Part shown: piece after piece, positions 23,548 to 37,924 of the stretch
How positions within the stretch are numbered: position 1 is the stretch's first letter
Layout of the letters: each line of letters begins with the position of its first letter
Source of the DNA: an uncultured SAR86 cluster bacterium
GTDB taxonomy: Bacteria > Pseudomonadota > Gammaproteobacteria > Magnimaribacterales > D2472
Assembly: GCA_902624425.1 (NCBI GenBank)
Contig: CACNXK010000005.1
Span: 1-64,000 of the forward strand
Direction of reading: 5' to 3'
Length of the DNA: 64,000 nt
Position numbers and translations under genes: made by a program
Notes under the pieces: model-generated
Databases searched by the model: none
Seen by the model: the letters and a program-made list of their open reading frames with translations, nothing else
Told to the model about the DNA's origin: nothing

Positions 23548-24669
23548 ATGAATTGGGAAGTTGTAAATGATATCGATCAAGCAAAAATAAAAGTTATTGG
23601 GGTGGGTGGTGCCGGAGGCAATGCAGTGATCCACATGATGAATCACAAAATCCAAGGTGTTGAATTTATATGCGCTAATACAGATTCACAAGCCTTAGAG
23701 AATGCTAAGGGCGCCACTATTTTAAAACTTGGTGGTGGAATGACTAAAGGACTTGGGGCAGGAGCAAACCCCGAAGTTGGAAGGCAAGCTGCAGAAAGAG
23801 ATCGAGAGGCTATAGAACAACTTCTTCATGGTTCAGATATGATATTTATAACTGCTGGAATGGGTGGTGGAACTGGCACTGGAGCTGCTCCCGTAATTGC
23901 ATCAATAGCAAAAGAACTAGGTGCTCTAACTGTTGCGGTGGTAACAAAGCCATTTAAATTTGAAGGTAAGCCCAGAATGAGCTCTGCTGAGAAAGGTTTA
24001 GCTGCTTTAGTTGAAGAAGTTGACAGTCTGATAACGATTCCCAATCAGAAATTAATAGATGTTCTTGGAGCAAATACACCGATTCCAGAGGCTTTTGCAC
24101 AAGCAGATGATGTTTTAAAGGGAGCTGTTCAAGGTATTTCAGATATCATTATGAAACCAGGACTCATCAATGTTGACTATGCTGATGTCAAAACAGTTAT
24201 GTCAGAAAAAGGAATAGCAATGATGGGTACTGGAAGATCAAACACAAAAGATCGTGGAAGAGATGCAGCAGAGTTAGCTGTAGGAAGTGAGCTGCTTGAA
24301 GATATAAACCTTAAGGATGCTAGAGGCGTTCTTGTAAATATTTCTGCCAAAGATCCAACGATGGGAGATTTTACTGAGGTAAGTGAAGTTGTTGAGGAGT
24401 TTACTGCCGATGATGCAACATGCATCTATGGGCTCGTAATTGACCCTTCTCTTAAAGATGAGCTCATGGTTACAATTGTAGCAACTGGAGTTAACCAAAA
24501 ATCTCCAAAGCTGGCTATCGATAACAAGCCACGAGCATCTATCAAACTTTCACCTGTTGGATTAGATAAAGATCTTACAAATAAAGAAGTTCAACAAGTT
24601 GGTACATCGTCTGCAGAGGCAATTGATTTCCTCGATGTACCAACTTTTATGAGAAAGCAAGTAGACTAA
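23548..24669 (+). CDS. ftsZ: Cell division GTPase FtsZ
   Basis: IKVIGVGGAGGNAV, GMGGGTGTGAAPVIA, C-terminal peptide DFLDVPTFMRKQVD. Confidence 0.98.
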   Translation: MNWEVVNDIDQAKIKVIGVGGAGGNAVIHMMNHKIQGVEFICANTDSQALENAKGATILKLGGGMTKGLGAGANPEVGRQAAERDREAIEQLLHGSDMIFITAGMGGGTGTGAAPVIASIAKELGALTVAVVTKPFKFEGKPRMSSAEKGLAALVEEVDSLITIPNQKLIDVLGANTPIPEAFAQADDVLKGAVQGISDIIMKPGLINVDYADVKTVMSEKGIAMMGTGRSNTKDRGRDAAELAVGSELLEDINLKDARGVLVNISAKDPTMGDFTEVSEVVEEFTADDATCIYGLVIDPSLKDELMVTIVATGVNQKSPKLAIDNKPRASIKLSPVGLDKDLTNKEVQQVGTSSAEAIDFLDVPTFMRKQVD

Positions 24670-24672
24670 AAA

Positions 24673-25569
24673 ATGCTTCATTCTCCAGTATTGCTGGAAG
24701 AATCAATTGATTATTTAATCACAAATACTTCCGGAAAATATATTGATGCAACCTTTGGGCGAGGGGGGCATTCCAAAAAGATATTAGAATCTATTTCTAA
24801 AGATGGAAGGCTGCTTGCCATTGATAAAGATTTAGAAGCTATTAGATTTGCTCAGAAAAATTTTAAAGAAAAAAATTTTTCTATTAAACATGCAGGCTTT
24901 GAGAATTTAGATATGTTATGCCCTTCTGAAGAAGCTGATGGCATCTTATTTGATTTTGGGCTTTGCTCAACTCACTACGATGACTCATCAAGAGGCTTTA
25001 GTTTTAATGAAGCTGGACCACTTGATATGCGAATTGATACTACGCAATCAAAAAAACTAGAGGATTTATTTCAAGACATAGATGCTCAGACTCTTGCAAA
25101 TATTATTTTTAAATATGGAGAAGAGAAAGAAGCAAGAAAAATTTCAGGAGCAATTATTGATTCATATAAGAGAGGAAAAATTTTAAATACTCTAGATTTA
25201 GCTGAAATCATTAAAAAAACTAAAACGCAATCACCAAAAAAAATTCATCCTGCAACCAAAACTTTTCAGGCTTTGAGGATTTTTTTAAATGATGAAATTA
25301 ATAATTTAGAAATCGGACTTAGAAAATCAAAAGATTTGATAAAAACTGGTGGAAGAGTAGTTTGCATAAGCTTTCATTCCCTTGAGGATAGATCAGTAAA
25401 ACAAACATTTGCTCCAAAGAAGATTAGTTATCCAAAAGAAATACCTCTGAACAATAGAGTTATAAAAGATTTTAAAATAGTAGCAAAAAAAATTAGGCCA
25501 AGTATTGATGAGCTTCAAAGAAATAAAAGATCTAGAAGTGCAATTATGAGAGTTTTTGAGAAAATATAG
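24673..25569 (+). CDS. rsmH: 16S rRNA (cytosine(1402)-N4)-methyltransferase
   Basis: YIDATFGRGGHSKKIL, DGILFDFGLCSTHYD, FHSLEDRSVKQTF. Confidence 0.97.
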   Translation: MLHSPVLLEESIDYLITNTSGKYIDATFGRGGHSKKILESISKDGRLLAIDKDLEAIRFAQKNFKEKNFSIKHAGFENLDMLCPSEEADGILFDFGLCSTHYDDSSRGFSFNEAGPLDMRIDTTQSKKLEDLFQDIDAQTLANIIFKYGEEKEARKISGAIIDSYKRGKILNTLDLAEIIKKTKTQSPKKIHPATKTFQALRIFLNDEINNLEIGLRKSKDLIKTGGRVVCISFHSLEDRSVKQTFAPKKISYPKEIPLNNRVIKDFKIVAKKIRPSIDELQRNKRSRSAIMRVFEKI

Positions 25570-27439: not shown

Positions 27440-28860
27440 AAACTTTAAGAGACTTAAATGTCAACCTCAATGAAGATATTCCCATATCAGGATTATCTTG
27501 CTCATCAAAATTAATTGAAAAAAACCACTGCTTTATCGCACTTCAAGGCTTGAAATCACATGGTCTAGATTTCATTGATGAAGCGATTGCTAATGGAGCA
27601 AGCTGCATCTTACATAACAAAAGCAATTATGATCAAAAGCAAAAGGTACCTTGTTTTTATATTAAAAATTTACATGAGAGACAAAAAGATATACTTCTCA
27701 ACTTTTACAACATTTGTGAAGAGAACTTAAAGTTTCTGATGTTCACTGGAACAAATGGAAAGACTTCAACAGCACATTTTACTTACCAAATTCTTCAAAG
27801 AGCAAATAAAGATGCAATTCTTGTAGGAACATTGGGAATTGAAAGCAGAACAAGTTTTCAAGAAACAAATACAACTACTCCTAACCTATTTGAGCTATTT
27901 GAATTTATTTCCAAAGAAACATATTTAAATGATCTCTATATTTGTATTGAAGCTTCTTCCCATGGTCTAGAGCAAAATAGATTGATTGGTTTGGGGGTGG
28001 AAACAAGAGCTATCCTAAATATTGAAAAAGATCATTTAGATTTCCATAAAAACATCGAAAGCTATGTTGCTTCAAAACTTAAGATTTTAAATTTTCCTTC
28101 ACAAAACAAAATTATTTTGAATGGAGATTGTGAGACCTCTTCTTCACTAATAAGTAATCAATTAAGAGATCATGATAAATGCATTATAAGTAACACAGAT
28201 AGAAGAGCGGATTACTTTTTTTCAATCGTAAAAATTGATAAATCAAGCAGTATGTTTAAATTAACAATTGATAGAGAATGCATAGATTTAAAAGTAAATT
28301 TTTTCCAAAAATATAATATCTATAACTTAATATTTGCAATAGCAGCCACAAACCAGATTGAAAAAAATACTTTTTTGAAAAAAGACATTATCGAATCACT
28401 TATTCTTCCAAAGGGAAGGGCAAAAATGATCACAAAGAAAAAGAAAAATATTTTAGTTGATTATGCTCATAATTTAGGTGGCATGAAAGCTGTTATTAAA
28501 TCGGTCTCAAATATTTATGAAAATTTAGTTATCGTTTATGGTTGTGGAGGAGAAAGAGATAATTCTGATAGAGAAAGGATGATGCAATTTGCTTCTAATA
28601 ATTCAAGAAAAGTTATATTTACTTCTGATAACAGCAAAAGTGAGAGTTTCCAGTCAATTTTGGATGATTCTAAAAAAGATCACGAGTATAGTAATTTAAT
28701 TGTTGAACCAGATAGGAAGCAGGCAATAAAACTTGGTTTGGAGTTAATTAAAGAAAATGAAATCTTATTAATTCTTGGAAAAGGACACGAAGAATTTCAA
28801 GAAATAAAAGGAACTAAAATACCTTTTAATGATCAAAAGGTAGTGGAGCAAATTTTATGA
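27436..28860 (+). CDS. murE: UDP-MurNAc-L-Ala-D-Glu:mDAP ligase
   Basis: P-loop FTGTNGKTSTAHF; VDYAHNLGGMKAVI; dcw position. Confidence 0.93.
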   Translation: MKTLRDLNVNLNEDIPISGLSCSSKLIEKNHCFIALQGLKSHGLDFIDEAIANGASCILHNKSNYDQKQKVPCFYIKNLHERQKDILLNFYNICEENLKFLMFTGTNGKTSTAHFTYQILQRANKDAILVGTLGIESRTSFQETNTTTPNLFELFEFISKETYLNDLYICIEASSHGLEQNRLIGLGVETRAILNIEKDHLDFHKNIESYVASKLKILNFPSQNKIILNGDCETSSSLISNQLRDHDKCIISNTDRRADYFFSIVKIDKSSSMFKLTIDRECIDLKVNFFQKYNIYNLIFAIAATNQIEKNTFLKKDIIESLILPKGRAKMITKKKKNILVDYAHNLGGMKAVIKSVSNIYENLVIVYGCGGERDNSDRERMMQFASNNSRKVIFTSDNSKSESFQSILDDSKKDHEYSNLIVEPDRKQAIKLGLELIKENEILLILGKGHEEFQEIKGTKIPFNDQKVVEQIL

Positions 28861-29441
28861 AATATTTTATATTTTTTCTGATATCTTTCTCAACATTCTC
28901 CTTTTCTGAGAAAAAAATTATCTGTGAGCTGGATGGATCATTTTCTGTAACCTATAGGGATATTTCAAAAACAGTTATATCGGAAGGCTTAGATTTTTTT
29001 AAGAACTTAGCAACTCAGACTCAACAATCTATTTTTCTTATTAACAAAGCAAAAACAAACTTTGATAAAGATGATTGGCAAAAAGAGTCTTTGCAAGTTG
29101 TTCAGTATTGGGAAATCGATGATAGTGATAATCTTCTTAAGCTTAATTATACTTTTGATCCATCACCAATTTGGATAAATCCAAAAGCTAACTGGAGCAA
29201 AAAGATTACAGAAAACGGAATTGAAGTAATATCATCAATGAGTTTGGGGGATGAGCATCCGCTATTTGAGAACTATACGGTTGAATATTATGGTATTTCG
29301 AATTCAATAAATTGGTATACAGGTAAAGGAAGAATTTTTGGTGATATTTGGCTTAAGAGTAAAGATGGTGGAAAAAATAAAAATCCTAAACTAGAAATCC
29401 TAGCAAAAGGCAATTGCTCAAGGAAAGAAAGAAAATTTTAA
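28857..29441 (+). CDS. Uncharacterised secreted protein encoded between murE and murF
   Basis: N-terminal signal peptide-like MKYFIFFLISFSTFSFS; no family recognised. Confidence 0.75.
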   Translation: MKYFIFFLISFSTFSFSEKKIICELDGSFSVTYRDISKTVISEGLDFFKNLATQTQQSIFLINKAKTNFDKDDWQKESLQVVQYWEIDDSDNLLKLNYTFDPSPIWINPKANWSKKITENGIEVISSMSLGDEHPLFENYTVEYYGISNSINWYTGKGRIFGDIWLKSKDGGKNKNPKLEILAKGNCSRKERKF

Positions 29442-30772
29442 TGAAATTTATTTCTAGCACAAATGACGTAAGAAATTATCTTGGCTTACAATCAAGAAAA
29501 AATATTAAGTTCAAAAATATTTCTATTGATACGAGAACCATAAAAAAAGACTCACTATTTATTGCTTTAAAAGGACCAAACTTTGATGGAAATAAATTTA
29601 TTGAAAAAGCATTTTCTCTCGGGGCGAAAGCCGTTTTATGTTCAGATAAATCTTATAAAAAAAGAACTAATGTTATCTATGTTTCAAGTGTAAGAAGTGC
29701 TCTTTTAAAAATTTCATCAAAAATTGCATCTAATTTTCAAGGTAAGAAGATATTAATAACAGGAAGTAATGGAAAAACATCTACAACAAGAATTATTTCA
29801 AGATCTCTTCCTAAATGCTCTTCAACTATAAAAAATTATAATAATGAGATTGGTCTTCCTGTAAGTCTAATGTCTGCAAATAAAGATAGTAAGTATATTG
29901 TTCTAGAGGCTGGAGCAGCCAAAAAAGGAGATATTGAATACCTTTCAAAAATAGTAAAACCTGATATTGGAATAATTACAAATATTGGAAATTCTCATTT
30001 AGAAAAACTTAAGAATGTTGAAGGTGTTTTCAAAGTAAAATCTGAGCTTATAAAGAATATCCGCAAAGGTGGCACCTTAATAGTCCCAAATGATAAAAAA
30101 TTTCTTCATAGATGGAAAAAAATGGCAAATGGAATAAAGGTACTCCCTGTTCCTGAAAAATTTATTGCAGCTAATGAAAAAATTTTAAGTGCTAAAAAGA
30201 TAATGACTTTTGATATTATTGAAAATATTGCGGACAAGAAAAAACCGAAAATCATACCTATTTCATCATCACTTTTGGGAAGACATAATATTCAAAATAT
30301 TTTGGTATGTTACACATGTTTAAATGATCTTAGAGAGAGCGCTTCTATGATGCATAAGTCCCTCAAAAATATGTCTAGCTCTATCTCTAGACAGCAAATC
30401 TTTTCGTGGAAAAATAAATCAATTTTGATCGATGATACTTATAATGCTAACCCAGAATCAGTTAAAAGAAGTTTAGATGTTTTATCAGAATTTTCAGGTA
30501 GAAAAATCTTTATTTTTGGCGATATGTTTGAGTTGGGTAGGTTTAGAAAAAAACACCATATTGACGTTGGCTTATATGCACATAAAGCTAAGATTGATAA
30601 GCTTATAACGTTTGGAGAGCTTTCAAAGCTAGCATCTAAAAGATTCCAAAAAAAATCCTATAATTTTAATGATGAAAACGAGCTAAAAGAATTTTTGGTT
30701 AATTTTATTAAAAAGAATGATATTGTTTTAATAAAAGGATCAAGAGGAATGAAGATGGAGAGATTTATATAA
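29441..30772 (+). CDS. murF: UDP-MurNAc-tripeptide:D-Ala-D-Ala ligase (ORF track start 29414; start at 29441 preferred)
   Basis: ISIDTRTIKKDSLFIALKG, ITGSNGKTSTTR, IDDTYNANPESVK. Confidence 0.95.
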   Translation: MKFISSTNDVRNYLGLQSRKNIKFKNISIDTRTIKKDSLFIALKGPNFDGNKFIEKAFSLGAKAVLCSDKSYKKRTNVIYVSSVRSALLKISSKIASNFQGKKILITGSNGKTSTTRIISRSLPKCSSTIKNYNNEIGLPVSLMSANKDSKYIVLEAGAAKKGDIEYLSKIVKPDIGIITNIGNSHLEKLKNVEGVFKVKSELIKNIRKGGTLIVPNDKKFLHRWKKMANGIKVLPVPEKFIAANEKILSAKKIMTFDIIENIADKKKPKIIPISSSLLGRHNIQNILVCYTCLNDLRESASMMHKSLKNMSSSISRQQIFSWKNKSILIDDTYNANPESVKRSLDVLSEFSGRKIFIFGDMFELGRFRKKHHIDVGLYAHKAKIDKLITFGELSKLASKRFQKKSYNFNDENELKEFLVNFIKKNDIVLIKGSRGMKMERFI

Positions 30773-31857
30773 TGTTTGAATACTTAGGAACCATTCTTGT
30801 TGATGTTGACCCTGGTTTTGATGTTCTAAGATATCTAACAGTCAGAACAATAGGAGGAACAGTTACAGCATTATTATTAACTATATTTTTGGGCCCAAAA
30901 TTGATTAACTGGCTTTCAAAAATGCAATTTAAACAATTTGGGGTTGAGAGAGGTCCTGATTCTCATAAAGAAAAGTCTGGCACTCCAACCATGGGCGGAC
31001 TTTTAATAATTTCTTCTTTACTTATATCCACATTATTGTGGACAGACTTAGGCAATAGATATGTTTGGGTATGCTTATTTATAACCTTAGGATTTACGGT
31101 CATAGGCTTTCTAGATGACTTTTATAAAATAAAACACAGAGACTCAAAGGGTTTATCAGGAAGGCTAAAACTTTTTACTCAAACTTTAGTTTCTGTTACC
31201 GCTGTTAGTTTTTTATACTTTACCGCTGAGGATTCAGCTGAAATATCATTAATACTTCTCTTTAATAAAGACTGGATATTTGAAATGAGCATGCTTGCAT
31301 TTATTTTGTTTGGCTCTTTTGTAATTGTTGGATCTTCAAATGCAGTAAATTTGACAGATGGTCTTGATGGCTTGGCAATATTGCCAACAATCTTAATAGC
31401 AGGTGGCCTTGGATTAATAGCTTATGCAATGGGTAACCAATTAATTGCAGAGTACTTGTTTATACCCCATTTAAAAATTGCTGGAGAGCTAATCGTATTT
31501 TGTGGAGCTCTCATTGGATCTGGTATAGGTTTCTTGTGGTATAACTCATACCCTGCAGAGGTTTTTATGGGCGATGTAGGATCACTTACTCTTGGTGCAA
31601 TTTTAGGAGTTCTTGCTGTAATTTTGAGACATGAAATAGTCTATGCAATTATGGCTGGAGTTTTTATAGCTGAAACCCTGAGTGTAATGATCCAAGTTAC
31701 ATCATACAGATTAAGACAAAAAAGAGTTTTTCTAATGGCACCTATTCATCATCACTTTGAACTCAAAGGATGGGCAGAACCAAAAATTATAGTCAGGTTT
31801 TGGATAATCACATTAGTTTTAATTTTAGTTGCACTTGCAACCCTTAAATTAAGGTAA
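30772..31857 (+). CDS. mraY: Phospho-MurNAc-pentapeptide transferase
   Basis: GTPTMGGLLI, NLTDGLDGLAI, MAPIHHHFELKGW. Confidence 0.98.
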   Translation: MFEYLGTILVDVDPGFDVLRYLTVRTIGGTVTALLLTIFLGPKLINWLSKMQFKQFGVERGPDSHKEKSGTPTMGGLLIISSLLISTLLWTDLGNRYVWVCLFITLGFTVIGFLDDFYKIKHRDSKGLSGRLKLFTQTLVSVTAVSFLYFTAEDSAEISLILLFNKDWIFEMSMLAFILFGSFVIVGSSNAVNLTDGLDGLAILPTILIAGGLGLIAYAMGNQLIAEYLFIPHLKIAGELIVFCGALIGSGIGFLWYNSYPAEVFMGDVGSLTLGAILGVLAVILRHEIVYAIMAGVFIAETLSVMIQVTSYRLRQKRVFLMAPIHHHFELKGWAEPKIIVRFWIITLVLILVALATLKLR

Positions 31858-31863
31858 CAGTTA

Positions 31864-32898
31864 ATGCCATCTTTAATATATGGTTACGGTGTAACTGGGA
31901 AGTCATTTGAGAAGTATCTTACTAATTCAGGTGAAGATTTTGATATATTTGACTCTTTATATAATGATTCGTCAAAAATTTATTCGAAAATTGAGAATAA
32001 ATTTTATAAAAATATTTATGTAACCCCATCAGCATCAAAAGAGAAGTTCAAATATCTTAAAAAATATTCGAATGTAATTACCGATATGGATATTTTTTTT
32101 GAGAAAGATAACTCCATAAAGATAGGCATAACAGGCACTAATAGAAAAAGCACTACCTGTTTTCACTTAATGCAGCTCCTAGAGGAAGATTATTCAGTGA
32201 ATCTTGTTGGAAATATTGGCAAGCCAGTTCTTGATGTTTTGAATAATGGTAAAAAGTTTTCAATTATTGAGCTTTCTAGTTTTCAGTTAGATAAGGTAGA
32301 AAGTATTGGCCTTGATTATGGGATTTTGCTTAATATAGAAAGTGATCATCTTGATTATCACGAGACTATAGAAGACTACACAAGATCAAAAAAAAGAATA
32401 TTAGAAGCCAATGAGAGCATCCAAAGTGATGATTTAAAAACAATATATAAATTCATCACTGGATCGACGCCACAAATAAAAGAATTAAAAGATCTTCCAT
32501 TTCGATTTGAAAAGATTAATCAAAATATCATTAATGACTCAAAATCTACTAACTTTCACTCACTAGAGTTTGCTTTAGTAAAAGCCAATGAAATGTTTGA
32601 TGACTATGCTTTGATATTGATGGGTTGCCCAAAAAAAGAAGGGCACAAAAAAATTAAGGTTTCTAATCCCGGACATGTATTTATATGTGGTGAACATAAA
32701 GAGGAGATATTCTCATGCGTTATGCATGAGAATAAGATTAAATGTAAAGATCTTAAATCAGCTCTAAAAGAAATCTCTAAAGCTAGGATTCAAAATGTCC
32801 TTTTTTCTCCAGGATATCCTAGTGGAGAAGACTATCTTAATTTTGAGGAAAGAGGCCTAGCATTCAACAAACTAATTGAGGAGAATTTTGGAATTTAA
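31864..32898 (+). CDS. murD: Divergent, shortened MurD (UDP-MurNAc-L-Ala:D-Glu ligase-like, 344 aa)
   Basis: ITGTNRKSTT, IELSSFQLDKVES, LLNIESDHLDYH, NDSKSTN, SPGYPSGEDYLNFEERG; dcw position between mraY and ftsW. Confidence 0.85.
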   Translation: MPSLIYGYGVTGKSFEKYLTNSGEDFDIFDSLYNDSSKIYSKIENKFYKNIYVTPSASKEKFKYLKKYSNVITDMDIFFEKDNSIKIGITGTNRKSTTCFHLMQLLEEDYSVNLVGNIGKPVLDVLNNGKKFSIIELSSFQLDKVESIGLDYGILLNIESDHLDYHETIEDYTRSKKRILEANESIQSDDLKTIYKFITGSTPQIKELKDLPFRFEKINQNIINDSKSTNFHSLEFALVKANEMFDDYALILMGCPKKEGHKKIKVSNPGHVFICGEHKEEIFSCVMHENKIKCKDLKSALKEISKARIQNVLFSPGYPSGEDYLNFEERGLAFNKLIEENFGI

Positions 32899-36415: not shown

Positions 36416-37311
36416 AAAATGTGTGCGTCCTTTATGGTGGTAAATCCTCAGAAAGAGATGTTTCACTTAAAAGTGGAAGATTTATTTTTGAATCCTTAAC
36501 CAAAATCGGATACGAAGCGACATTAATTGATTATGCAGACCTTAATGACATAACAAAACTAAAAGACTTTAGTTTAGTATTTATCGCATTGCATGGAGAA
36601 GAAGGTGAAAGTGGTATTCTCCAATCTCAAATGGAGGCTGAAGGAATAAATTATACTGGCTCAGATTTTGAAGCTTGCCGGAATAGTTGGGACAAAGAAA
36701 TTTGCAAAAACATACTAAATAAAAACAATTTGCCTACTCCTGATTTCTTAGTTTTTAAAACATTTCAGGAAATAATTGAATCTCAGCTAGAAATCGAAGA
36801 GCGATTTCATGATGGGGTATTCATAAAACCGTGTAAAGAAGGATCCAGCATAGACATTATAAAAGTTCCAAATCTATCAAAATTTAATTTTGAAGATGTA
36901 AAAGTAAATTTAATTAATGGAAACAGAAGATTCTTAGTTGAAAAATTTATTGAGGGTAGGGAATTTACTGTTGGTTTTTTAGATGGACATATCCTTGAAC
37001 CTCTAGAAATAATTACAAAAAGAGAATTCTATGACTATTCAGCTAAATATGATGATGATGATACACAAATAATAAGAGCCGATTTAGACAACAATGCTCT
37101 AGAAGATTTGAAAGATATAGCCAGAGATTGTTTTCATGTTTTTGAAATTTCTAAATGGGGAAGAGTTGACATTTTACAGGACAAGGAAGGGAATTTTTTT
37201 ATACTAGAGCTTAATACCGTTCCTGGCATGACGGACCATAGTCTTTTTCCATTCGCTGCCAGTTTGCAGGGATTTAGTTTCGAAGAGCTGGTAAATGAAA
37301 TCATTAAATAA
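36412..37311 (+). CDS. ddl: D-alanine--D-alanine ligase (ORF track start 36403; start 36412 preferred)
   Basis: VLYGGKSSERDVSLKSG, FIALHGEEGESGILQ, FILELNTVPGMTDHSLFP. Confidence 0.96.
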   Translation: MKNVCVLYGGKSSERDVSLKSGRFIFESLTKIGYEATLIDYADLNDITKLKDFSLVFIALHGEEGESGILQSQMEAEGINYTGSDFEACRNSWDKEICKNILNKNNLPTPDFLVFKTFQEIIESQLEIEERFHDGVFIKPCKEGSSIDIIKVPNLSKFNFEDVKVNLINGNRRFLVEKFIEGREFTVGFLDGHILEPLEIITKREFYDYSAKYDDDDTQIIRADLDNNALEDLKDIARDCFHVFEISKWGRVDILQDKEGNFFILELNTVPGMTDHSLFPFAASLQGFSFEELVNEIIK

Positions 37312-37924
37312 GAAATTAAAACACCTATTCATTTTTTTTACCTTATTTAATATTCCCTTGCATTCAGCAGAATTTGAAATTAATTTTATTAATGCTTTTG
37401 ATGAAAGTTCTATTTCCGAAGTCATCCAAGAATTGAAATATGAAAATAATATTAAAGATATAAAAATATTTTTAGATAAAAAAAAATGGATCGAAAGATA
37501 TGAAATCAAAAGAAATTTTTTTAAACCATCTTCAATAAATATCTTTTCACGAAAACCAATTTTTATATGGAACAACAATAGTTTTGTTGACAAAGAATTC
37601 GTTATCTTTCAAAAGAGTGAGAATTCGACATTTGACAGTATTCTTTCCATAAATTGCCCAAGATCGTTACTTGATGATATTTTTTATTTCGTTCAGAATC
37701 CTATTGAAATATCAGAAAACTCACTTGTTTCAATAGACTACAACTCAGTTGAGGGATGGGTATTTCAATATGAACAATTTCAAGCAAAACTGGGCAAAAA
37801 TTTGGATAATTATAAGTTTGAAAATCTATCAAAAACTATGGAATATTTGTACGCAAAAAGAAAAAATCCAAGTATAGTAGATTTAAGAAGTAATGCTGGC
37901 GTTGCCTTAAAATATGACAAATAA
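37295..37924 (+). CDS. ftsQ: FtsQ-like divisome protein (divergent)
   Basis: Position ddl-X-ftsA; weak POTRA/FtsQ pattern WIERYEIKRNFFKPSSINIFSRKPIFIWNN. Confidence 0.65.
   Translation: MKSLNKKLKHLFIFFTLFNIPLHSAEFEINFINAFDESSISEVIQELKYENNIKDIKIFLDKKKWIERYEIKRNFFKPSSINIFSRKPIFIWNNNSFVDKEFVIFQKSENSTFDSILSINCPRSLLDDIFYFVQNPIEISENSLVSIDYNSVEGWVFQYEQFQAKLGKNLDNYKFENLSKTMEYLYAKRKNPSIVDLRSNAGVALKYDK

Follow-up and report, generated by a model that had tools for sequence, protein, structure and literature searches.

MurD is an essential enzyme of cell-wall synthesis and an antibiotic target whose ATP site has been characterised by a small set of invariant residues. The locus examined here raises the question of whether a protein that lacks several of these residues, and is considerably smaller than E. 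coli MurD, can be a working ligase. The window, by which we refer to the whole 64,000-nucleotide stretch of DNA analysed, from an uncultured SAR86 gammaproteobacterium, encodes a short form of murD at 31864..32898 on the forward strand, with a product of 344 aa relative to 438 aa in E. coli. The gene is directly preceded by mraY (30772-31857) and overlapped at its 3' end by the start of ftsW (32876), in a dcw cluster comprising ftsI, murE, murF, mraY, murD, ftsW, murG, murC, ddl, an ftsQ-like gene and ftsA. We considered whether the missing segment might be encoded separately nearby, but these flanking genes leave no room for it. As the window derives from a metagenome-assembled genome (MAG) that is 78.5% complete, gene absences reported here rest on near-complete relatives.

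Relative to E. coli MurD, the sequence of which served solely as a length yardstick, the window protein was found to be 66 residues shorter from the carbamylated Lys to the hinge Arg (38 versus 104), 21 shorter ahead of the P-loop in the N-terminal domain and five shorter past the hinge Arg, with the interval from the P-loop to the carbamylated Lys being nearly of full length (85 versus 87). A preliminary description of this DNA had put the loss from the central domain at about 70 residues, in agreement with this measurement, and had correctly recognised a shortening between the RILEAN and LPFRFE motifs, although its figures of approximately 37 versus 100 residues are replaced here by 27 versus 93; it made no mention of the N-terminal shortening. 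The trimmed stretch (residues 184-210; 32413..32493) lacks the HNxxN segment along with flanking elements, and both adenine-contacting Asn residues are gone, as had been stated of the SGQHNxxN motif. The P-loop, G91-T92-N93-R94-K95-S96-T97 (32134..32154) in place of the canonical GTNGKST, was likewise as originally read within GITGTNRKSTT, codon 94 being AGA (32143..32145) and placing an Arg at the position of the P-loop Gly (G114 in E. coli).

With the P-loop Gly set aside, nine of the 12 MurD invariants, reportedly those listed by Bouhss and colleagues (1999; cited in PMC1326233), were retained in the window protein (equivalents of D35, K115, E157, H183, Y194, K198, R302, D317 and R425), and three (N268, N271 and H301) were lost. 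The core MurD residues Lys95, Glu136 (E. coli E157; 32269..32271), His162 (H183; 32347..32349), Lys176 (K198, the carbamylated Lys of E. coli; 32389..32391), Arg214 and Asp225 were all present, as was Arg330 (R425; 32851..32853); retention of the P-loop Lys, Glu136, His162, Lys176 and Asn224-Lys227 had been claimed beforehand. Asp225-Ser226-Lys227 (32536..32544) corresponds to D317-S318-K319, and at Phe213-Arg214 (H301-R302; 32500..32505) the His has been lost and the hinge Arg kept, which accounts for the previously noted reading of LPFRFE for LPHRFE. The canonical enzyme (PDB 1UAG to 4UAG, 2JFG; TIGR01087) shares with the window protein its three domains, its catalytic core, and the C-terminal SPxxxS and FExRG motifs.

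Differences from E. coli MurD extended to the surroundings of D-Glu, where a rebuilt loop, Gly254-Cys-Pro256-Lys-Lys258-Glu259 (32623..32640), replaces GGDGK348, and Ser-Pro-Gly-Tyr-Pro-Ser (residues 315-320; 32806..32823) replaces SPACAS. The K348 loop, C413, A414 and L416 have all changed in the very clade from which the N271 equivalent disappeared, indicating that the acceptor site was altered too, whilst the equivalents of S415, T321 and D317-K319 are unchanged; Pro256, Lys258, Glu259 and Pro319 are invariant among the short forms of the window's family. At 14 positions reported to distinguish MurD from MurE (PMC1326233), the window protein was MurD-type at 10, with the K348 loop uncounted, and MurE-type only at H166; F213, Y318 and the K348 loop were the points of difference.

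An AlphaFold model of the window MurD, built with 32 relatives, had a mean pLDDT of 92.4 and a pTM of 0.81, and its 33 best matches in the PDB were all MurD entries, at approximately 20% identity and with TM-scores of up to 0.76 (by query length). Such a pTM and moderate TM-scores would be expected for three mobile domains. Beyond the helix bearing the carbamylated Lys, the model of a full-length SAR86 MurD (L138; pLDDT 89.4) contains a pair of strands and three helices: a short one, one of 22 residues that carries the Asn motif close to its start, and one that precedes the hinge. In the window model, only one strand and a nine-residue helix are left in this region. The N-terminal domain, too, appears to be missing one beta-alpha unit.

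The NCBIfam murD model (TIGR01087) matched the window protein in two pieces at 178.1 bits, under its cut-off of 211.95, and murD was the top NCBIfam family with a lead of more than 100 bits. Fold, core residues and genomic context all support membership of MurD, and the open reading frame is a real, unusually small MurD; since the curated cut-off, the adenine-contacting Asn pair and the P-loop Gly all fail, we refer to it as a variant of MurD. Annotators should be warned that the gene falls under the curated cut-off.

The distribution of the short form was surveyed across SAR86, the order Magnimaribacterales (PMC11582366), in 203 genomes of four families, 107 of them from the ten genera of the window's own family (f1). 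Seven of ten genomes in the window's genus carried a short MurD, the six others being 73-76% identical to that of the window. Within the family, short reading frames (approximately 342-368 codons) occurred in eight genera and long ones (414-449) in the remaining two, g6 and g10. Intact short MurD proteins (340-361 aa) were encoded at the dcw position in 78 f1 genomes and in 17 genomes of a sister family, f4, such that the length and motifs recurred in 94 genomes besides that of the window; the named carriers are SAR86 genomes, many of them from single cells, together with MAGs, from several studies. One family member harbours a short murD with three in-frame stops (G043:C1:606403-607419), reflecting either an assembly error or a real loss. 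In the other two families MurD measured 397-400 aa (f2) and 429-440 aa (f3), so that across the order the protein shrinks stepwise, through about 435, 400, 357 and 344 aa.

Among the best-scoring matches listed from a sample of 370 gammaproteobacterial genomes, no intact MurD outside the order was as short, two short frames (259 and 364) having probably been cut by contig ends. In a separate gammaproteobacterial family with genomes of 1.0-1.2 Mb (L247, L248 and L249), MurD was 374-414 aa in length, with a partly reduced HNxxN segment and one Asn kept, a case of partial convergence. Searches of the open-access literature found nothing relevant on a short MurD or on MurD in SAR86, and a paper on a SAR86 isolate makes no mention of peptidoglycan.

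The longer f2 and f3 proteins share with the window MurD their order, dcw position and similar sequence outside the trimmed parts, and they look like intermediates. The N271 equivalent and the P-loop Gly are kept in these proteins, N271 in 22 of 22 sequences as well as in four long f1 sequences, whereas the HNxxN segment is deleted, and N271 lost, in all 26 short MurD proteins aligned, in which this column is no longer alignable with certainty. The N268 equivalent had already been lost from nearly all f2 and f3 proteins, and the Asn residues thus disappeared stepwise, N268 before N271. As the order has kept these intermediates, the loss can be followed stage by stage.

In a MurD tree from which the trimmed columns were omitted, all short forms fell into one clade with full support, outside which lay the long MurD proteins of g6 and g10. 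Six neighbouring genes grouped f4 with f1 and placed g6, g10 and g4 together inside f1; the long proteins are encoded at the murD position (L059 and L062 in g6, L057 and L058 in g10) despite neighbour genes that belong inside the short-MurD family. Most of this pattern is explained by one deletion passed on by descent, and the data fit an origin of the short form once, in an ancestor common to f1 and f4, after which murD was replaced in g6 and g10. The long genes of these two genera reflect either in-place replacement or convergence, and independent losses may also have contributed to the distribution of the short form.

The P-loop substitution was less widespread than the trimming. Arg or Lys occupied the Gly site in genera g1, g5, g7, g8 and g9 (five of the eight short-MurD genera of the family), whilst Gly was kept in g2, g3, g4, g6 and g10 and in the other families, including f4. 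Among 80 named loci, the codon at this site was AGA in 33, AGG in 11, CGA in three, AAA in six, a Gly codon in 26 and unread in one, giving Arg or Lys in 53. The Gly, Arg and Lys states required two changes on the MurD tree, of which one was an exchange of Arg and Lys, and Gly persists in some short forms; the substitution is thus later than the trimming and was not needed for it.

These data bear on whether the window gene is an artefact or a relic. That it came from an incomplete MAG might suggest a misread AGA for GGA and a collapsed segment, a check for which had been proposed; yet the site is filled by three different Arg codons or a Lys codon in five genera, and proteins of equal length are encoded by independent single-cell genomes and MAGs, which excludes a read error at this codon and leaves sequencing or assembly error as a whole with a negligible probability. 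The preliminary description had also offered a decaying gene with its activity supplied elsewhere, and the low family score, missing segment and lost invariants are what such a pseudogene might display. Against this, 95 genomes have an intact frame, the subfamily has invariant residues of its own, and no second MurD was found in the genomes searched, near-complete relatives included, where the other Mur-type matches were MurC, MurE, MurF and Mpl; one extra Mur-type match considered as a second MurD turned out to be Mpl. Pairwise dN/dS values of murD within the window's genus ranged from 0.09 to 0.21, with dS relative to the window exceeding 1 and hence near saturation, and, by identity between genera, MurD was about as conserved as MurC and MurF and more so than MurE and MurG. 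The short murD is under purifying selection, and the proposal of decay is abandoned here as very improbable.

Two further readings accept a functional gene with a different reaction. In one, the enzyme would resemble the MurD2 of Xanthomonadales, adding L-Glu that a separate epimerase such as MurL inverts afterwards. SAR86 does resemble these organisms in that MurI was absent from the eight genomes searched, the D-Glu pocket of the short MurD is altered, and the A414 equivalent is Pro, as in MurD2 (PMC8788868). The residues that decide chirality in MurD2 are nevertheless missing: Glu197 is represented by Asp161 (the position of E. coli D182), and instead of Arg358 the K348 position holds Lys257 or Lys258, with no conserved Arg. 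MurL was also absent from all 16 SAR86 genomes searched, with a query taken from control genomes encoding both MurD2 and MurL (NF041275, 810 bits) and with detection in three of three positive controls. As to the supply of D-Glu, twelve SAR86 genomes had no Asp/Glu racemase (PF01177) above threshold, yielding sub-threshold partial matches only, but a class IV aminotransferase of 274 aa, nearest to D-amino-acid transaminases, is encoded directly after dacA in the window's genome (C4:13996-14643; L078:1408-2229) and in G052, in a family (PF01063) with two or three members per genome searched. D-amino-acid transaminases are known to supply D-Glu (PMC8788868), and with MurI absent this Dat-like protein is the probable source in SAR86, an assignment that is likely rather than firm as it scored 192 bits against a curated cut-off of 320 and 182 bits against one of 277. 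By analogy, a bifunctional DapF of the kind described in Chlamydia (PMC5885031) is possibly a further candidate. A MurD2-like L-Glu ligase is accordingly improbable; together, the conservation, selection, fold, codon variety, sole MurD and Dat-like gene make this reading, decay and sequencing error all unlikely. In the other reading, a ligase of MurD fold has moved to a different amino acid or acceptor, and D-Glu is ligated by an unrecognised enzyme. The changes at the K348 loop, C413, A414 and L416 equivalents throughout the short clade would be consistent with this, but the gene lies where murD is expected in a dcw cluster that is otherwise complete, its product is mostly MurD-type at the MurD-specific positions, and the MurE, MurF, Ddl and Mpl present would all expect a peptide containing D-Glu, so we regard a change of substrate as improbable.

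The short MurD is most probably a working D-Glu ligase with a rebuilt and more open nucleotide site, the product of streamlining, although the altered acceptor site and the low transaminase scores weigh against this reading. The earlier proposal of a minimal or altered-mechanism D-Glu ligase is thereby upheld at the sequence level, given the clade-wide conservation, purifying selection, MurD fold, catalytic core, absence of a second MurD and probable D-Glu source; from the sequence and model we infer activity, D-Glu as the substrate, the openness of the pocket, and roles for Arg94 and Lys258. The chemistry would be the usual one, in which a carboxyl is phosphorylated while Mg-ATP is bound through the P-loop Lys and Ser/Thr, Glu136, His162 and carbamylated Lys176, followed by attack of D-Glu, itself bound by Asp225-Ser226-Lys227, Thr229, Ser320 and probably also by Lys258, which is invariant. 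The nucleotide site has lost its second strand and its short helix, together with the helix preceding the hinge and the greater part of the HNxxN helix. Adenine binding by residues of the HNxxN segment has been stated for Mpl by analogy with MurC (PMC3060825), and adenine would therefore be bound without conserved Asn contacts in a pocket that is probably more open. In that part of the clade where it replaces the P-loop Gly, Arg or Lys may add a phosphate contact.

The preliminary description had considered these changes specific to MurD. The MurC, MurE and MurF of the window do have canonical P-loops, as it stated, and (H/Y)NxxN motifs besides, and specificity to MurD holds for the window and its family; it fails in the sister families, where MurF lacks the same segment. 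This loss was seen in five of five f4 genomes examined (L145, L152, L153, L165 and L166; MurF of 388-391 aa) and four of four f2 genomes (L146, L160, L161 and L162; 415-422 aa), with no case among the f1 and f3 genomes examined. The segment has hence been trimmed in two paralogous enzymes, although the short MurF, unlike the window MurD, has kept its P-loop Gly. In f4 MurF, His, Tyr or Phe replaces the Asn ahead of this Gly.

It is about an even proposition that SAR86 Mur ligases evolved more than once to bind ATP without the conserved adenine segment, in MurD here and in MurF in two sister families, with the charged P-loop residue of MurD partly replacing the segment and nucleotide specificity possibly relaxed. 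The corresponding loss in MurF, which arose in parallel, suggests a general rule for what portion of the Mur fold can be dispensed with. That a large and abundant marine clade dispenses with three invariants, and in part with the P-loop Gly, suggests that a portion of the MurD ATP site long held to be invariant can be lost, and the list of invariants is probably not a strict requirement.

The dcw cluster of the window had other features of note. A 194-aa open reading frame with a signal-like start (28857-29441) is inserted between murE and murF; 25 further SAR86 genomes had no relative of it in their dcw regions, and no Pfam family matched it above cut-off. The ftsQ position is occupied by a 209-aa open reading frame (37295-37924) that has no Pfam match and is conserved in relatives. 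The ftsZ gene (23548-24669), followed by a 298-aa open reading frame (24673-25569), is located upstream of ftsI and not after ftsA, and the cluster has thus been rearranged.
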